Origin: Desulfobacteraceae bacterium
Lineage (GTDB): Bacteria > Desulfobacterota > Desulfobacteria > Desulfobacterales > JAABRJ01
DNA length: 48,573 bases
Reading direction: 5' to 3'
Assembly: GCA_022340425.1 (NCBI GenBank)
Contig: JAJDNY010000105.1
Span: forward strand, 1 to 48,573
Position 1 is the first letter of the stretch; the number at the start of each line of letters is the position of its first letter. Below the pieces are notes generated by a model, which saw only the letters and a list, made by a program, of their open reading frames with translations, was not told the origin of the DNA and did no database searches. The position numbers were made by a program, and so were the translations under genes. Positions 6,096 to 13,946 of this stretch are shown one piece after another.

Positions 6096-6458
6096 TCATA
6101 AGCCCAGAGATTTCTCCAGCGCCTCTTCCTTGGTTTTGCATTCGATGCACTGGGTGGTCACGGGCCGTGCCTTCAGGCGTTCGATGGAGATCTCCTCGCC
6201 GCAGGTTTCGCAGATCCCGAAGCTGCCGTTTTCGATCCGTTCGAGGGCCTTTTTGATCTTTTTGATCAATTTGGCCTCGCGGTCGCGGATCCGCAGCATG
6301 AAATTGCGGTCGGACTCGAGGGAGGCGCGGTCGGTGGGATCCGGAAAGTTCTCTTTCTGGGCCGTCATGCCGGTGACCGTTTCATCTGCCTGGGACAAGA
6401 GCTCTTCCAGTCGCTGGGTCAGCTGCGCCTTAAAGACGTCCATCTCTTCTTTTTTCAT
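6096..6458 (-). CDS. dksA: DksA/TraR-family zinc-finger transcription regulator
   Basis: The 120-residue protein has an N-terminal coiled-coil, the DPTDRA tip motif (DxxDxA) at the coiled-coil turn that reaches into the RNA polymerase secondary channel, and a C4 zinc finger CETCGEE...CIEC near the C-terminus. These are the hallmarks of DksA-type proteins that act with ppGpp at promoters. It is shorter than E. coli DksA (151 residues), as in many Deltaproteobacteria. GAGGT precedes the ATG at 6458. It heads the operon that continues with the PHP gene and rnc. Paralogues are common in this phylum, so the exact orthologue is uncertain. Confidence 0.85.
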
Positions 6459-6490
6459 GGTCAGACCTCAAAGAGCGGTTATCCAAATTT

Positions 6491-6615
6491 GACGGTTCCG
6501 CAAAAAGTCCAATCTCTGCGTTGCGCCGCATCTCGATGTCGCTGCGGCTTACATGAGTGCGCCTCACGCCGCTGAGATTTGCGCGCCTTGAGCTTGAGCT
6601 TTTTTCGAAACCGTC
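6491..6615. repeat. MITE-like inverted-repeat element (125 bp)
   Basis: The segment is bounded by 17-base terminal inverted repeats GACGGTTCCGCAAAAAG (6491-6507) and CTTTTTTCGAAACCGTC (6599-6615), which match at 15 of 17 positions when one is reverse complemented. An inner inverted repeat surrounds CTGCGGCTTACATGAGTGCGCC. It lies in the non-coding gap between the dksA-like gene and the fabD terminator and has no ORF of its own. I see no second copy in this window. It resembles a small non-autonomous element or a REP-type structure. Confidence 0.6.
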
Positions 6616-6683
6616 TGGTTTTCGACTATCTACCGCATAATCAAATTTAAAATTCGTTTTTATAAGCCCCTTTGGGAGTTTTG

Positions 6684-10722: not shown

Positions 10723-10989
10723 ATGGGTTTCAACTACAAGAAAAACCAACCCTGGGTCGAAAACCTCACCATTGTATTGCAGCTCGGTCTTACCATGGCC
10801 GGCTGCATTTTTTTTTGTTTCTTCATCGGAAAAGCCCTTGATGCCTGGTTCGGCACCAAAGGGGTGTTCATCACCATCTTTACCCTGCTGGGGATTGCCG
10901 GCGGCGCCAACGTGGTTTACCGCCAGATCCTGGAAGTGACCAAACCCAAAGACGAGCCCGGCGATGAAGATCGAAACGACCGAAATTAG
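10723..10989 (+). CDS. atpZ: AtpZ/AtpI-type small ATP synthase accessory protein
   Basis: The 88-residue protein has two membrane segments (about 15-37 and 47-66) and the pattern GKALDAWFGTKG, as in AtpZ-like putative F0F1 assembly factors that precede atpI and atpB in many operons. Such proteins are thought to help c-ring assembly or cation supply. It starts with ATG at 10723 and overlaps the next gene by 26 bases, which implies coupled translation. Naming rests on context and the two-helix pattern. Confidence 0.75.
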   Translation: MGFNYKKNQPWVENLTIVLQLGLTMAGCIFFCFFIGKALDAWFGTKGVFITIFTLLGIAGGANVVYRQILEVTKPKDEPGDEDRNDRN

Positions 10990-11362
10990 GGAGCTGCAAA
11001 AGAGGGTGGGGACCCGCGCCATGACCGTCGCCCTGGTGGCGGCCGGCATCTGCATCGTCGCCGGTGCGCGCCCCATCGGCAAAGGGCTGCTGCTGGGGAC
11101 CCTTTTCAGCATCCTCAATTTCGTTCTCATGGGCGCCACGCTGCACCTGCGGCTGCAGCCCACCCGGCGGCGGGCTTTCTGGGGGGCTCTCGGCGGCATT
11201 GTGCCGCGCTACCTGCTGCTGGCGGTGCCGGTCATTTTGGCCCTCAAGCTGGAGCAGTTGAACCTCTGGGCCACGGTGGGCGGGATCTTCATGGTGCAGG
11301 CGGTCATTCTACTGGAACCTCTCTGGCGTTCGCTGCGCGCAGCGCGGCACTCTCGGGCATAG
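10964..11362 (+). CDS. atpI: ATP synthase subunit I
   Basis: The 132-residue protein has a short charged N-terminus and four predicted membrane helices, matching AtpI, the chaperone-like factor that promotes c-ring assembly in some F-ATPases, notably Na+ types. GKGLLLGTLFSILNF is typical of the second helix. It overlaps the preceding small gene by 26 bases and ends 10 bases before atpB. Its presence beside an unusual c-ring gene set suggests a role in assembling that ring, which is inference. Confidence 0.8.
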   Translation: MKIETTEIRELQKRVGTRAMTVALVAAGICIVAGARPIGKGLLLGTLFSILNFVLMGATLHLRLQPTRRRAFWGALGGIVPRYLLLAVPVILALKLEQLNLWATVGGIFMVQAVILLEPLWRSLRAARHSRA

Positions 11363-11372
11363 GAAACGTACT

Positions 11373-12047
11373 ATGGGGGACTTGGGAAGAATAAATCAGC
11401 TGATCGTTACCATCGGCGGTCAAAACCTGACCTTCAATCTGCAAGTCATCCTGATGACCTGGATCGTCATCGGCGTGCTGCTCTTCTTCGGGGTCATGAT
11501 GACCCGGCGCAGGGGAATGCTGCCGCATTCCATGCAGGTCCTGGGAGAGCTCTTCGTCGGGCAGTTCTACCAGCTCACCGAGGATGCCCTGGGCAAGGAG
11601 TACGTCGAGAAATACGCGCCCCTGATCTGCTCGGTGTTCATGTTCGTCGTTTTTTCCAACTGGCTGGGGGTCTTCCCGCACCTGGAAGAGCCCACCAAGG
11701 ATCTCAACACCCCCCTCAGCTTGGGCATCATGGGGTTTTTCATCGCCCACTATGCCGGCATCCGCTCCAAAGGATTCAAGGCATACGCCAAGGAATATTT
11801 CCAGCCCGTCTTTTTCATGATGCCGCTTAATGTGATCGGCGAACTGGCCAAGATCATCTCCATTTCCTTCCGCCTTTTCGGCAACATCATGGGGGGCTCG
11901 ATCATCATCCTGGTGGTGTCCTACCTGTGCTACAGTCTTGTGTTGCCGCCGTTTCTGATAGCCTTTTTCGGGATTTTCGTGGGTACGGTGCAGGCCTTCG
12001 TTTTTACAATGCTAACACTTGTTTACATTTCCATCCAGGTGAAATAG
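11373..12047 (+). CDS. atpB: ATP synthase F0 subunit a
   Basis: This 224-residue integral membrane stator subunit forms the two ion half-channels against the c-ring. The essential arginine is in SISFRLFGNIMGG (Arg167), with ELAKI just before it and a hydrophobic C-terminal helix pair after it. Length is usual for deltaproteobacterial a subunits. The stop TAG at 12045 abuts the ATG of the fused c gene with no gap, so the two are translationally linked. Confidence 0.95.
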   Translation: MGDLGRINQLIVTIGGQNLTFNLQVILMTWIVIGVLLFFGVMMTRRRGMLPHSMQVLGELFVGQFYQLTEDALGKEYVEKYAPLICSVFMFVVFSNWLGVFPHLEEPTKDLNTPLSLGIMGFFIAHYAGIRSKGFKAYAKEYFQPVFFMMPLNVIGELAKIISISFRLFGNIMGGSIIILVVSYLCYSLVLPPFLIAFFGIFVGTVQAFVFTMLTLVYISIQVK

Positions 12048-13025
12048 ATGATGGAATTCGATGCGCAGGCGTGGGTTAAGGTCGCCGCATTCATCGGCGG
12101 GGGAATGGCCATTGGCTTCGGCGCCATCGGGGCGGCCATCGGCGAAGGCTATACCGCCTCCCTGGCCAATCTGGCCGTGTCCAGAAACCCCAAGATCTCC
12201 GGCGATATCTTCAAAACGATGCTGGTGGGCCAGGCCGTGGCCGAGTCCGCCTCCATTTTCGCCCTGGTGGTGGCCATTCTGCTGCTCTTCATGAACCCGA
12301 GCAATGCCAGTATGATTCAGGCCGCGGCGTTTTTGGGGGCCGGTCTCAGCATGGGCTTCGGGGCCATCGGTTCGGGGATCGGGTCCGGATTCCCCGGCGG
12401 GCAGGCGTGCTTCGGGCTTTCGCGCCAGCCGGCGGTCGCCAGCCGGCTGACCACCAACATGCTGATCGGCTCCGCCGTCTGTCAGACCCCGGCGATCTTC
12501 TCGCTGGTGGTGGCCTTTATTTTGCTCTTCATGAACTTTTCCGCGGCGCCCCTGAATCCCAACTGGGCAGCGCTGGTGGGTGCGGGGCTCAGCACCGGAC
12601 TGGCCGCCATCGGCTCGGGCTACGGCGGCGGCATGGCCGCCGGTGCCAGTTGCGAGGGCGTCGCCCGTCAGCCGGAGGCGGTCGGCAACCTCACCACGAT
12701 CATGCTGGTGGGCCAGGCGGTGGCCCAAACCCCCGCCATTTTCGGCCTTCTGGTAAGTTTTATTCTGATCTTCAAGGTGTGGCCCGAGACCGCTCAGATC
12801 CAAACGGCCATGGCGCTCCTGAGCGCCGGCCTGTGTGCTGGCTTCGGCGGCATCGGGCCGGGATTGGGCAACGGGATGGCCGCGGAAGGCGCGGTGCGCT
12901 GGGTGGCCCGCAACCTGTCCAGTGCCGCGGACCTGATGCGAATCATGCTGGTGGGCCAGGCCGTTTCGCAGTCCACTGCGATTTATGCCCTGGTGGTCAG
13001 CCTGGTGCTGATCTTTGTGGTTTAG
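12048..13025 (+). CDS. Four-hairpin fused ATP synthase c subunit
   Basis: This 325-residue chain is four c-subunit hairpins in tandem: residues 1-84, 85-166, 167-247 and 248-325, eight membrane helices in all. Each has the glycine-rich first helix and the MLVGQAVxES-like second helix. The ion-site carboxylate is Glu66 in hairpin 1, but the same position is Gln146, Gln227 and Gln308 in hairpins 2-4 (codons CAG, CAA, CAG). The residue matching Gln32 of Na+ c-rings is Glu33, Ser113, Gly194 and Asn275. The hairpins differ clearly from each other, so this is an old duplication and not an assembly artefact. Its ribosome binding site (AGGTG before ATGATG) is weak. Normal bacterial c subunits have one hairpin of about 80 residues. 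Confidence 0.93.
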   Translation: MMEFDAQAWVKVAAFIGGGMAIGFGAIGAAIGEGYTASLANLAVSRNPKISGDIFKTMLVGQAVAESASIFALVVAILLLFMNPSNASMIQAAAFLGAGLSMGFGAIGSGIGSGFPGGQACFGLSRQPAVASRLTTNMLIGSAVCQTPAIFSLVVAFILLFMNFSAAPLNPNWAALVGAGLSTGLAAIGSGYGGGMAAGASCEGVARQPEAVGNLTTIMLVGQAVAQTPAIFGLLVSFILIFKVWPETAQIQTAMALLSAGLCAGFGGIGPGLGNGMAAEGAVRWVARNLSSAADLMRIMLVGQAVSQSTAIYALVVSLVLIFVV

Positions 13026-13125
13026 TGGTCCTGTGTACGCCGGCCGTTTTGTGCTCGCGTACTTGGGAACAGTTGCAGTCGCATTCAAAATCGTCGTGAC
13101 CGACGGATAAACGAGGAGGAAGACC

Positions 13126-13374
13126 ATGGCAATTGAAGGTGCGGACCTTGTCAAAGCAGCGGCTTTTTTGGGAGCGGGGATTGCAATGGGGCTGGGCGCC
13201 ATCGGCCCCGGTGTCGGCGAGGGGATGACGGCGGCCAAAGCGTGCGAGGCCATCGGCCAAAACCCCCGGGAAGCGGGCCTGCTGACCCGAACCATGCTGG
13301 TGGGCCAGGCCGTGGCCGAATCCACCGGTATCTACTCTCTGGTGATCGCCCTGCTGCTGCTCTTTGTGGTCTGA
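13126..13374 (+). CDS. atpE: ATP synthase F0 subunit c, single hairpin
   Basis: The 82-residue proteolipid forms the rotor ring. Two helices are joined by the polar loop GQNP, where most c subunits have RQP. Aligned without gaps to the Na+ c subunit of Ilyobacter tartaricus, it keeps Glu65, Ser66 and Tyr70 (AESTGIYS) and has Glu32 where that protein has Gln32, the two-carboxylate pattern known from Fusobacterium nucleatum. A strong ribosome binding site, GAGGAGGAAGACC, precedes the ATG. It follows the four-hairpin gene after 100 bases and shares long DNA identity with hairpin 1 around the ion site. Confidence 0.95.
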   Translation: MAIEGADLVKAAAFLGAGIAMGLGAIGPGVGEGMTAAKACEAIGQNPREAGLLTRTMLVGQAVAESTGIYSLVIALLLLFVV

Positions 13375-13484: not shown

Positions 13485-13946
13485 ATGGATTTCCAGATTG
13501 TCAGCAACATCGCCCTTATCAGCATCAACGCAACGCTGGTGGTGCAGCTGATCTCCTTCCTGATTTTCCTTTTTCTGATCAACGGGATCCTGATTCAGCC
13601 CCTGCGCCGGACCATGGCCGAGCGCGCCGGCTATCTCGACCAGATGAAGCTGGATATCGTGGAGGCGGAAAAGGAAATGAACCGCCTGCTGAAGGAACTG
13701 GCCGCGCGTGAAAAAATGGTGCGCAACGAGGCCCTGATGGCCACCAAAGAGATGGAAAACGAGGGGCTGCGCCGGGCTTCGGAAATCATCAAGGACGTCC
13801 GCAAAGAAATGGAAAGCCTCAGGAGCAAGACCCAACAGGCGGTGATCGACCAGTTGGCGGCGGCCCGCGAGAAACTTGAACGGGAATCCGAGAGCCTTGC
13901 GCTGAGCATCATGGAAAAACTGCTGGACCGGAGGTTAACCCGATGA
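13485..13946 (+). CDS. atpF: ATP synthase F0 subunit b' (first b-type subunit)
   Basis: The 153-residue protein has one N-terminal membrane helix (about 18-36) and then a long charged coiled-coil rich in Glu, Lys and Arg, the stator stalk that holds F1 against rotation. ILIQPLRRTMAER is the usual hinge after the helix. It overlaps the following b gene by 4 bases (ATGA), so the two are translated together and probably form a b/b' heterodimer. It lies 110 bases after the single c gene. Confidence 0.9.
   Translation: MDFQIVSNIALISINATLVVQLISFLIFLFLINGILIQPLRRTMAERAGYLDQMKLDIVEAEKEMNRLLKELAAREKMVRNEALMATKEMENEGLRRASEIIKDVRKEMESLRSKTQQAVIDQLAAAREKLERESESLALSIMEKLLDRRLTR

Follow-up and report, generated by a model that had tools for sequence, protein, structure and literature searches.

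A fused four-hairpin c subunit with blank internal interfaces in an Fo gene cluster of a Desulfobacteraceae bacterium: a probable minor component of a hybrid Na+ rotor

The number of ion sites in the c-ring of a rotary ATPase fixes what an ATP costs in gradient, and tuning of this cost is thought to go via ring size. In Na+-coupled c-rings each site is made by two neighbouring hairpins, one contributing Glu/Gln32 and Glu65 and the other Val63, Ser66, Thr67 and Tyr70 (PMC3692424). Hybrid rotors in which one chain carries two hairpins are already known, among them the ring of Acetobacterium woodii, which has 10 Na+ sites (PMC7793690) and for which PDB entry 4bem lists one c1 chain with nine c2 chains; c1 of A. 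woodii and that of Clostridium aceticum show the same loss of a carboxylate (PMC7911925). Here we describe a c subunit gene with four fused hairpins (long c) in a 48,573-nucleotide stretch of DNA (the window; contig JAJDNY010000105.1, positions 1 to 48,573, assembly GCA_022340425.1) from a sulfate-reducer-like Desulfobacteraceae bacterium, together with its homologues, in which the two halves of the ion site are distributed along the chain in a fixed manner. We read the long c, with a probability of about 0.7, as the minor subunit of a hybrid Na+-coupled ring whose Fo gene set docks on a shared housekeeping F1.

Half-sites in the fused hairpins

The long c and its four hairpins are laid out as follows.

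12048..13025, + strand: long c, four fused hairpins, 325 amino acids (aa); open reading frame (ORF) without internal stop, four PF00137 stretches
12048..12293, + strand: hairpin 1; E33 and E66 kept, A68 and F71 in place of T67/Y70
12294..12536, + strand: hairpin 2, blank; S113, Q146, T147, P148, F151
12537..12779, + strand: hairpin 3, blank; G194, Q227, T228, P229, F232
12780..13022, + strand: hairpin 4; N275 and Q308 (no carboxylate), S309-T310-Y313 half-site intact

In Ilyobacter tartaricus numbering, where E33 and E66 of hairpin 1 are positions 32 and 65, the residues at positions 32, 63, 65, 66, 67 and 70 are E, V, E, S, A and F in hairpin 1, S, V, Q, T, P and F in hairpin 2, G, V, Q, T, P and F in hairpin 3 and N, V, Q, S, T and Y in hairpin 4, while the single-hairpin c encoded downstream (companion c) has E, V, E, S, T and Y. 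The original prediction, made from the letters of the window alone, had recognized the four hairpins; the absence of the ion-binding carboxylate from hairpins 2–4 (Q146, Q227 and Q308 against E66 in hairpin 1) goes beyond it.

With identical proteins entered a single time, the same layout was found across 112 different chains. The first hairpin carried E65 in 112/112 and F70 in 111/112 chains, the last hairpin S66, T67 and Y70 each in 111/112, and the middle hairpins Q65 in 223/230 and P67 in 191/230 cases, giving a Q-T-P-F/L signature. The exceptions were a chain cut by a contig end (L156) and one with two fully intact hairpins (L155, at about 6162-6644), which is preceded by a single c and perhaps represents the fusion at an early stage or after reversion. 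At the 264 internal junctions of 86 chains, both halves of the site were present in 25 cases, neither in 230, the Glu half alone in nine and the Thr/Tyr half alone in none, and where an internal hairpin had regained E65 the preceding hairpin had usually regained Thr/Tyr. Because of this pattern across chains and junctions, complete ion sites are predicted to survive mainly at the outer faces of the chain, the internal interfaces being blank. The cytoplasmic loop that faces F1, R-(Q/N)-P, was kept in the middle hairpins (R in 165/178, P in 178/178).

Homologues with 53–90% identity were present in more than half of 58 relatives sampled at one or a few per family. A match at E 1e-30 or better was found in 166/389 genomes and 92/148 genera of the class, and a draw from the phylum gave 43/395 matching genomes, including families outside the order. 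Four hairpins were most frequent (73 of the 112 chains), followed by five (16), three (12), six (6) and two (5, including the one cut by a contig end). Median omega was 0.064 for close pairs and 0.06–0.09 per hairpin, which indicates strong purifying selection. Hairpins of one chain shared 39–49% identity, compared with 69–73% between species at the same hairpin position. In a tree of separate hairpins, built with the ion-site columns masked and of low resolution given its few columns, first hairpins, middle hairpins and single c subunits were each set apart by a branch, with last hairpins next to the single c. Based on omega and this grouping by position, the long chain is old and each of its hairpins has an identity of its own. 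The earlier view of diverged hairpins in a settled gene was upheld by omega, by the identities within and between chains and by the tree, which had been proposed beforehand as a check. An assembly artefact or a recent, functionless tandem duplication has practically no chance of being the explanation: nothing was found in its favour, and it is ruled out by the low omega, by the hairpin differences conserved by position and by four-hairpin homologues intact in many independent assemblies, some of them single-contig (e.g. G235, G275 and G354).

Companion c, coupling ion and composition of the ring

The long c lies in a cluster ordered atpZ-atpI-atpB-long c-c-b'-b, the other members of which are listed below.

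10723..10989, + strand: atpZ-like gene; PF09527 (ATPase_gene1), E 9.7e-15
10964..11362, + strand: atpI; PF03899, E 7e-11
11373..12047, + strand: atpB, Fo subunit a; PF00119, SFRLFGN motif with the stator Arg
13113..13119, + strand: Shine-Dalgarno sequence (SD) GAGGAGG of the companion c, strong (that of the long chain is weak)
13126..13374, + strand: companion single-hairpin c, 82 aa; full two-carboxylate motif E32 V63 E65 S66 T67 Y70
13485..13946, + strand: b' subunit; PF00430
13943..14530, + strand: b subunit, last gene of the cluster; PF00430

The original prediction of four tandem hairpins in one ORF between atpB and a normal c gene was confirmed: the long c ORF starts directly 3' of atpB and is separated from the companion c gene by 100 nucleotides (nt). 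A Pfam search gave the four PF00137 stretches (E 6.9e-58), and DNA repeats within the ORF are spaced 240, 243 and 243 nt, a fifth copy of which lies in the companion c at +349. The predicted F-type identity also stood, the PF00137 hairpins adjoining a PF00119 gene upstream and two PF00430 genes downstream, although E66 of hairpin 1 is the only helix-2 carboxylate where an F-type c would have one in every hairpin. An AlphaFold2 model of the long chain reached a predicted local distance difference test score (pLDDT) of 95.7 and a predicted template modelling score (pTM) of 0.91. The arrangement varied in some relatives, with the long c placed before atpB (L132, 8607-9572), about 1.1 kb from the single c (L043, 3131-4099) or followed by two single c genes (L023, 1495-3113), as with c2 and c3 in A. 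woodii. One cluster of atpZ, atpI, a, c, b' and b contained a single c and no long chain (L051, G050:C1:2554000-2570000).

The companion c was present in nearly all complete loci. Its SD was stronger than that of the long chain in 100/102 loci (p 2.5e-18), with median duplex energies of -10.7 and -4.1 kcal/mol, respectively, a difference that fits the long chain being a minor and the single c a major component. RNA structure between the two genes, a candidate control of stoichiometry, folded no better than shuffled sequences (z 0.44). A weak SD, hence probably low amounts of product, and the assembly-linked atpZ and atpI in the cluster would also suit a long chain that acts as a scaffold or nucleus for assembly of the c-ring and is absent from the mature rotor. 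We consider this very unlikely, since c1 of A. woodii, the nearest solved relative, sits in the mature ring (4bem) and only interfaces within a ring would account for the half-site rule.

With regard to the coupling ion, the Na+ ligand set (Q/E32, V63, E65, S66, T67 and Y70) is complete in the companion c, and its E32/V63/E65/S66/T67/Y70 motif equals the Na+ site of Fusobacterium nucleatum (PMC3692424). The motif thus points to a Na+-coupled ring.

In the hybrid ring that we favor, one four-hairpin chain would replace four single c subunits beside several copies of the 82-aa c; its three internal interfaces would be dead, and complete sites would be confined to its contacts with neighbouring subunits. 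Such a ring would have three ion sites fewer, and rings with the two- to six-hairpin chains of relatives one to five fewer, so that hairpin number would set the ion-to-ATP ratio, with fewer ions per ATP than in a ring without blank interfaces. If a ring is assumed to hold 11 hairpins and a single long chain, eight sites and about 2.7 ions per ATP would result, and relatives would range from 10 sites to six.

A ring made of the long chain alone, e.g. three four-hairpin chains giving 12 hairpins, three sites and about one ion per ATP, would serve as a pump where gradients are steep, and the single c would belong elsewhere. The first and last hairpins of a chain could indeed complete each other's site in such a ring. 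Arguing against it, nearly all complete loci of the long c include a companion c whose site is complete and whose SD is strong, and hairpin numbers of two to six, including five, misfit a fixed ring size. By established thermodynamics, moreover, one ion per ATP is too little for synthesis at ordinary gradients, yet the long c is also encoded in complete F1Fo operons. We regard this arrangement as highly improbable.

F1 and Fo gene sets in carrier genomes

The window cluster contains no F1 genes; after b the next gene encodes a SpoU-family methylase on the opposite strand. The assignment to a Desulfobacterota-like operon was right as to lineage and is amended in that the cluster is Fo-only, with a second Fo elsewhere in the genome. 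F1 genes were located on contigs C51 (b', b, delta, alpha, gamma and beta) and C22 (N-ATPase). Subunit a of Fo is encoded three times, on C44 (beside an ordinary c), on C22 (N-type) and in the window. The N-ATPase operon (L048, 7018-13830, on G000:C22) and a V/A-type ATPase (L049, on G000:C187) bring the rotary ATPase rotor sets in this one cell to four.

One more a than gamma was counted in every one of 12 genomes from the order, the window's among them and the majority single-contig, two incomplete or frameshifted genomes being left aside, and likewise in 15 genomes outside the order, where G611 was ambiguous with a partial second gamma match. In the class, a exceeded gamma by one or more in 44/49 genomes with a long c vs 3/51 without, as counted in the first 100 complete genomes listed, with numbers copied out by hand and uncorrected for kinship. 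G050, whose cluster lacks the long chain, still has one more a than gamma and offers a natural control. Since carriers hold one more a than gamma, they appear almost always to possess one F1 and two Fo sets, which would share that F1. The a subunits of the long-c Fo formed one group (99/99 support), far from ordinary a. The c of the second Fo is ordinary, mostly with Q32, E65, S66, L67 and Y70; Leu67 has been termed typical of H+ enzymes (PMC4046663).

The missing F1 genes and the additional a of most carriers would equally be expected of an Fo that works without F1 or with another partner, e.g. as a Na+ leak or a regulated channel. This is unlikely in our view, as b and b', whose usual role is to hold F1, are retained, blank hairpins too preserve the loops that face F1 and, in the families f92, f103 and f115, this Fo shares an operon with the F1 of the genome, the ordinary a and c being located apart. 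Outside the window's family, the long c lies in operons that are complete, having delta, alpha, gamma and beta (L148, L160 and L164). In three loci of f103 (L145, L146 and L163) a six-hairpin c adjoins b', b and delta, and L146 also shows the start of alpha.

In the reading that we prefer, an Fo set without its own F1 would most likely dock on the housekeeping F1, replacing the ordinary Fo, which is H+-like and pairs its a with a single-hairpin c. Of this reading, sequence supports the site rule, the F1-facing loops, the stator Arg motif in a and the companion motif, and the companion c, the operon and the gene counts are likewise shown; the make-up of the ring, its single long chain, the coupling to Na+ and the sharing of F1 are inferred. 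Several points weigh against the reading. In atp operons the c gene usually has a strong SD, which is no proof of a 1:n ratio. On the tree, covariation of the half-sites amounts to 2–4 independent pairs, none opposed, and the sign test was not significant. The window genome is a draft (209 contigs, 97.7% completeness), so that its F1 count could be short by one, and the single-contig genomes settle this count for relatives only. No measured precedent is known to us for three to five interfaces in a row that lack a site in a rotor, and the proposed mechanism does not explain how blank interfaces pass the stator Arg.

A second ring kit beside the ordinary one, with a single motor head, suggests that the cell can change gear or fuel ion. 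More specifically, one F1 might serve two exchangeable Fo rotors, a H+ ring of single c and a Na+ hybrid ring with three to five blank neighbouring interfaces, the cell switching ion and gear via Fo and hairpin number being the evolved gear setting; we put this forward tentatively, at somewhat less than even odds. A lineage of sediment anaerobes seems to tune ion cost by fusing and blanking hairpins, with one to five blanks. If there is one chain per ring, the blank stretch would span about 120–130 degrees in a ring of 11–12, a sharp test of models of stator-rotor drive, and if one F1 does serve two Fo sets, the choice of coupling ion would become directly testable in organisms near the energy limit.

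The four-hairpin F-type c had been called unusual. It is common in its own lineage, where chains of 2 to 6 hairpins occur. In the literature searched, no account was found of Desulfobacterota c chains that exceed two hairpins, nor one of one F1 with two Fo. The 2015 review by Brandt and Mueller on how hybrid rotors are distributed, which lay outside that literature, reportedly lists around twelve anaerobes whose operon encodes one c of F-type and one of V-type, and some members of the long-c group may be among them. What appears new against the literature searched is the lineage-wide occurrence of three- to six-hairpin chains with a fixed half-site layout and the gene set of one F1 and two Fo.

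Comparison with known rotors

Two known types were considered and rejected. For an N-ATPase Fo, the companion c scored 67.3 bits against the TIGR03322 cut-off of 130.85, which the long chain exceeded (159.4) only as the sum of its four stretches, and the N-type gene set of this genome is the one on C22. For a V/A-type K subunit, NCBIfam models all remained below cut-off (PRK06271 133.7 vs 211, PRK14893 80.9 vs 188, others lower).

The ion site of Enterococcus hirae K sits in the middle of a chain, between its two hairpins; in the long c, by contrast, the sites are predicted at the chain ends. Fused hairpins, fewer sites than hairpins and a similar two-hairpin fold are shared with V/A-type K (E. 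hirae, 2bl2), but the long c gene sits with F-type a, b' and b. The F. nucleatum c-ring (PDB 3zk1, PMC3692424) has in common with the companion c and hairpin 1 the pair E32 and E65, and with the companion c also V63, S66, T67 and Y70; it is, however, a homomeric ring of 11 single hairpins without a fused chain, in contrast to the window.

The closest likeness is to A. woodii c1 (PDB 4bem_J), the best PDB match of the long c both by sequence and by Foldseek, onto which hairpins 3-4 of the AlphaFold2 model fit at 1.8 Å over 158 residues. Both have several hairpins per chain, with E65 in hairpin 1 and Q65 and Y70 in the last in the same register, and both stand beside a normal Na+-type c in an anaerobic host. 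As in an F/V-hybrid rotor, a fused c with a carboxylate-free hairpin accompanies a single-hairpin c, the first hairpin having the carboxylate and the last a Gln with an intact S/T-T-Y half. The A. woodii c1 differs in having two hairpins and one blank interface; the long c has four hairpins, its relatives have 2-6, and blanks number up to five. The long c also bears the Q-T-P-F/L signature, with E32 where c1 has Q32. Finally, the c genes of A. woodii and C. aceticum belong to a full F1Fo operon, while the window cluster is restricted to Fo in a genome that holds a second one.
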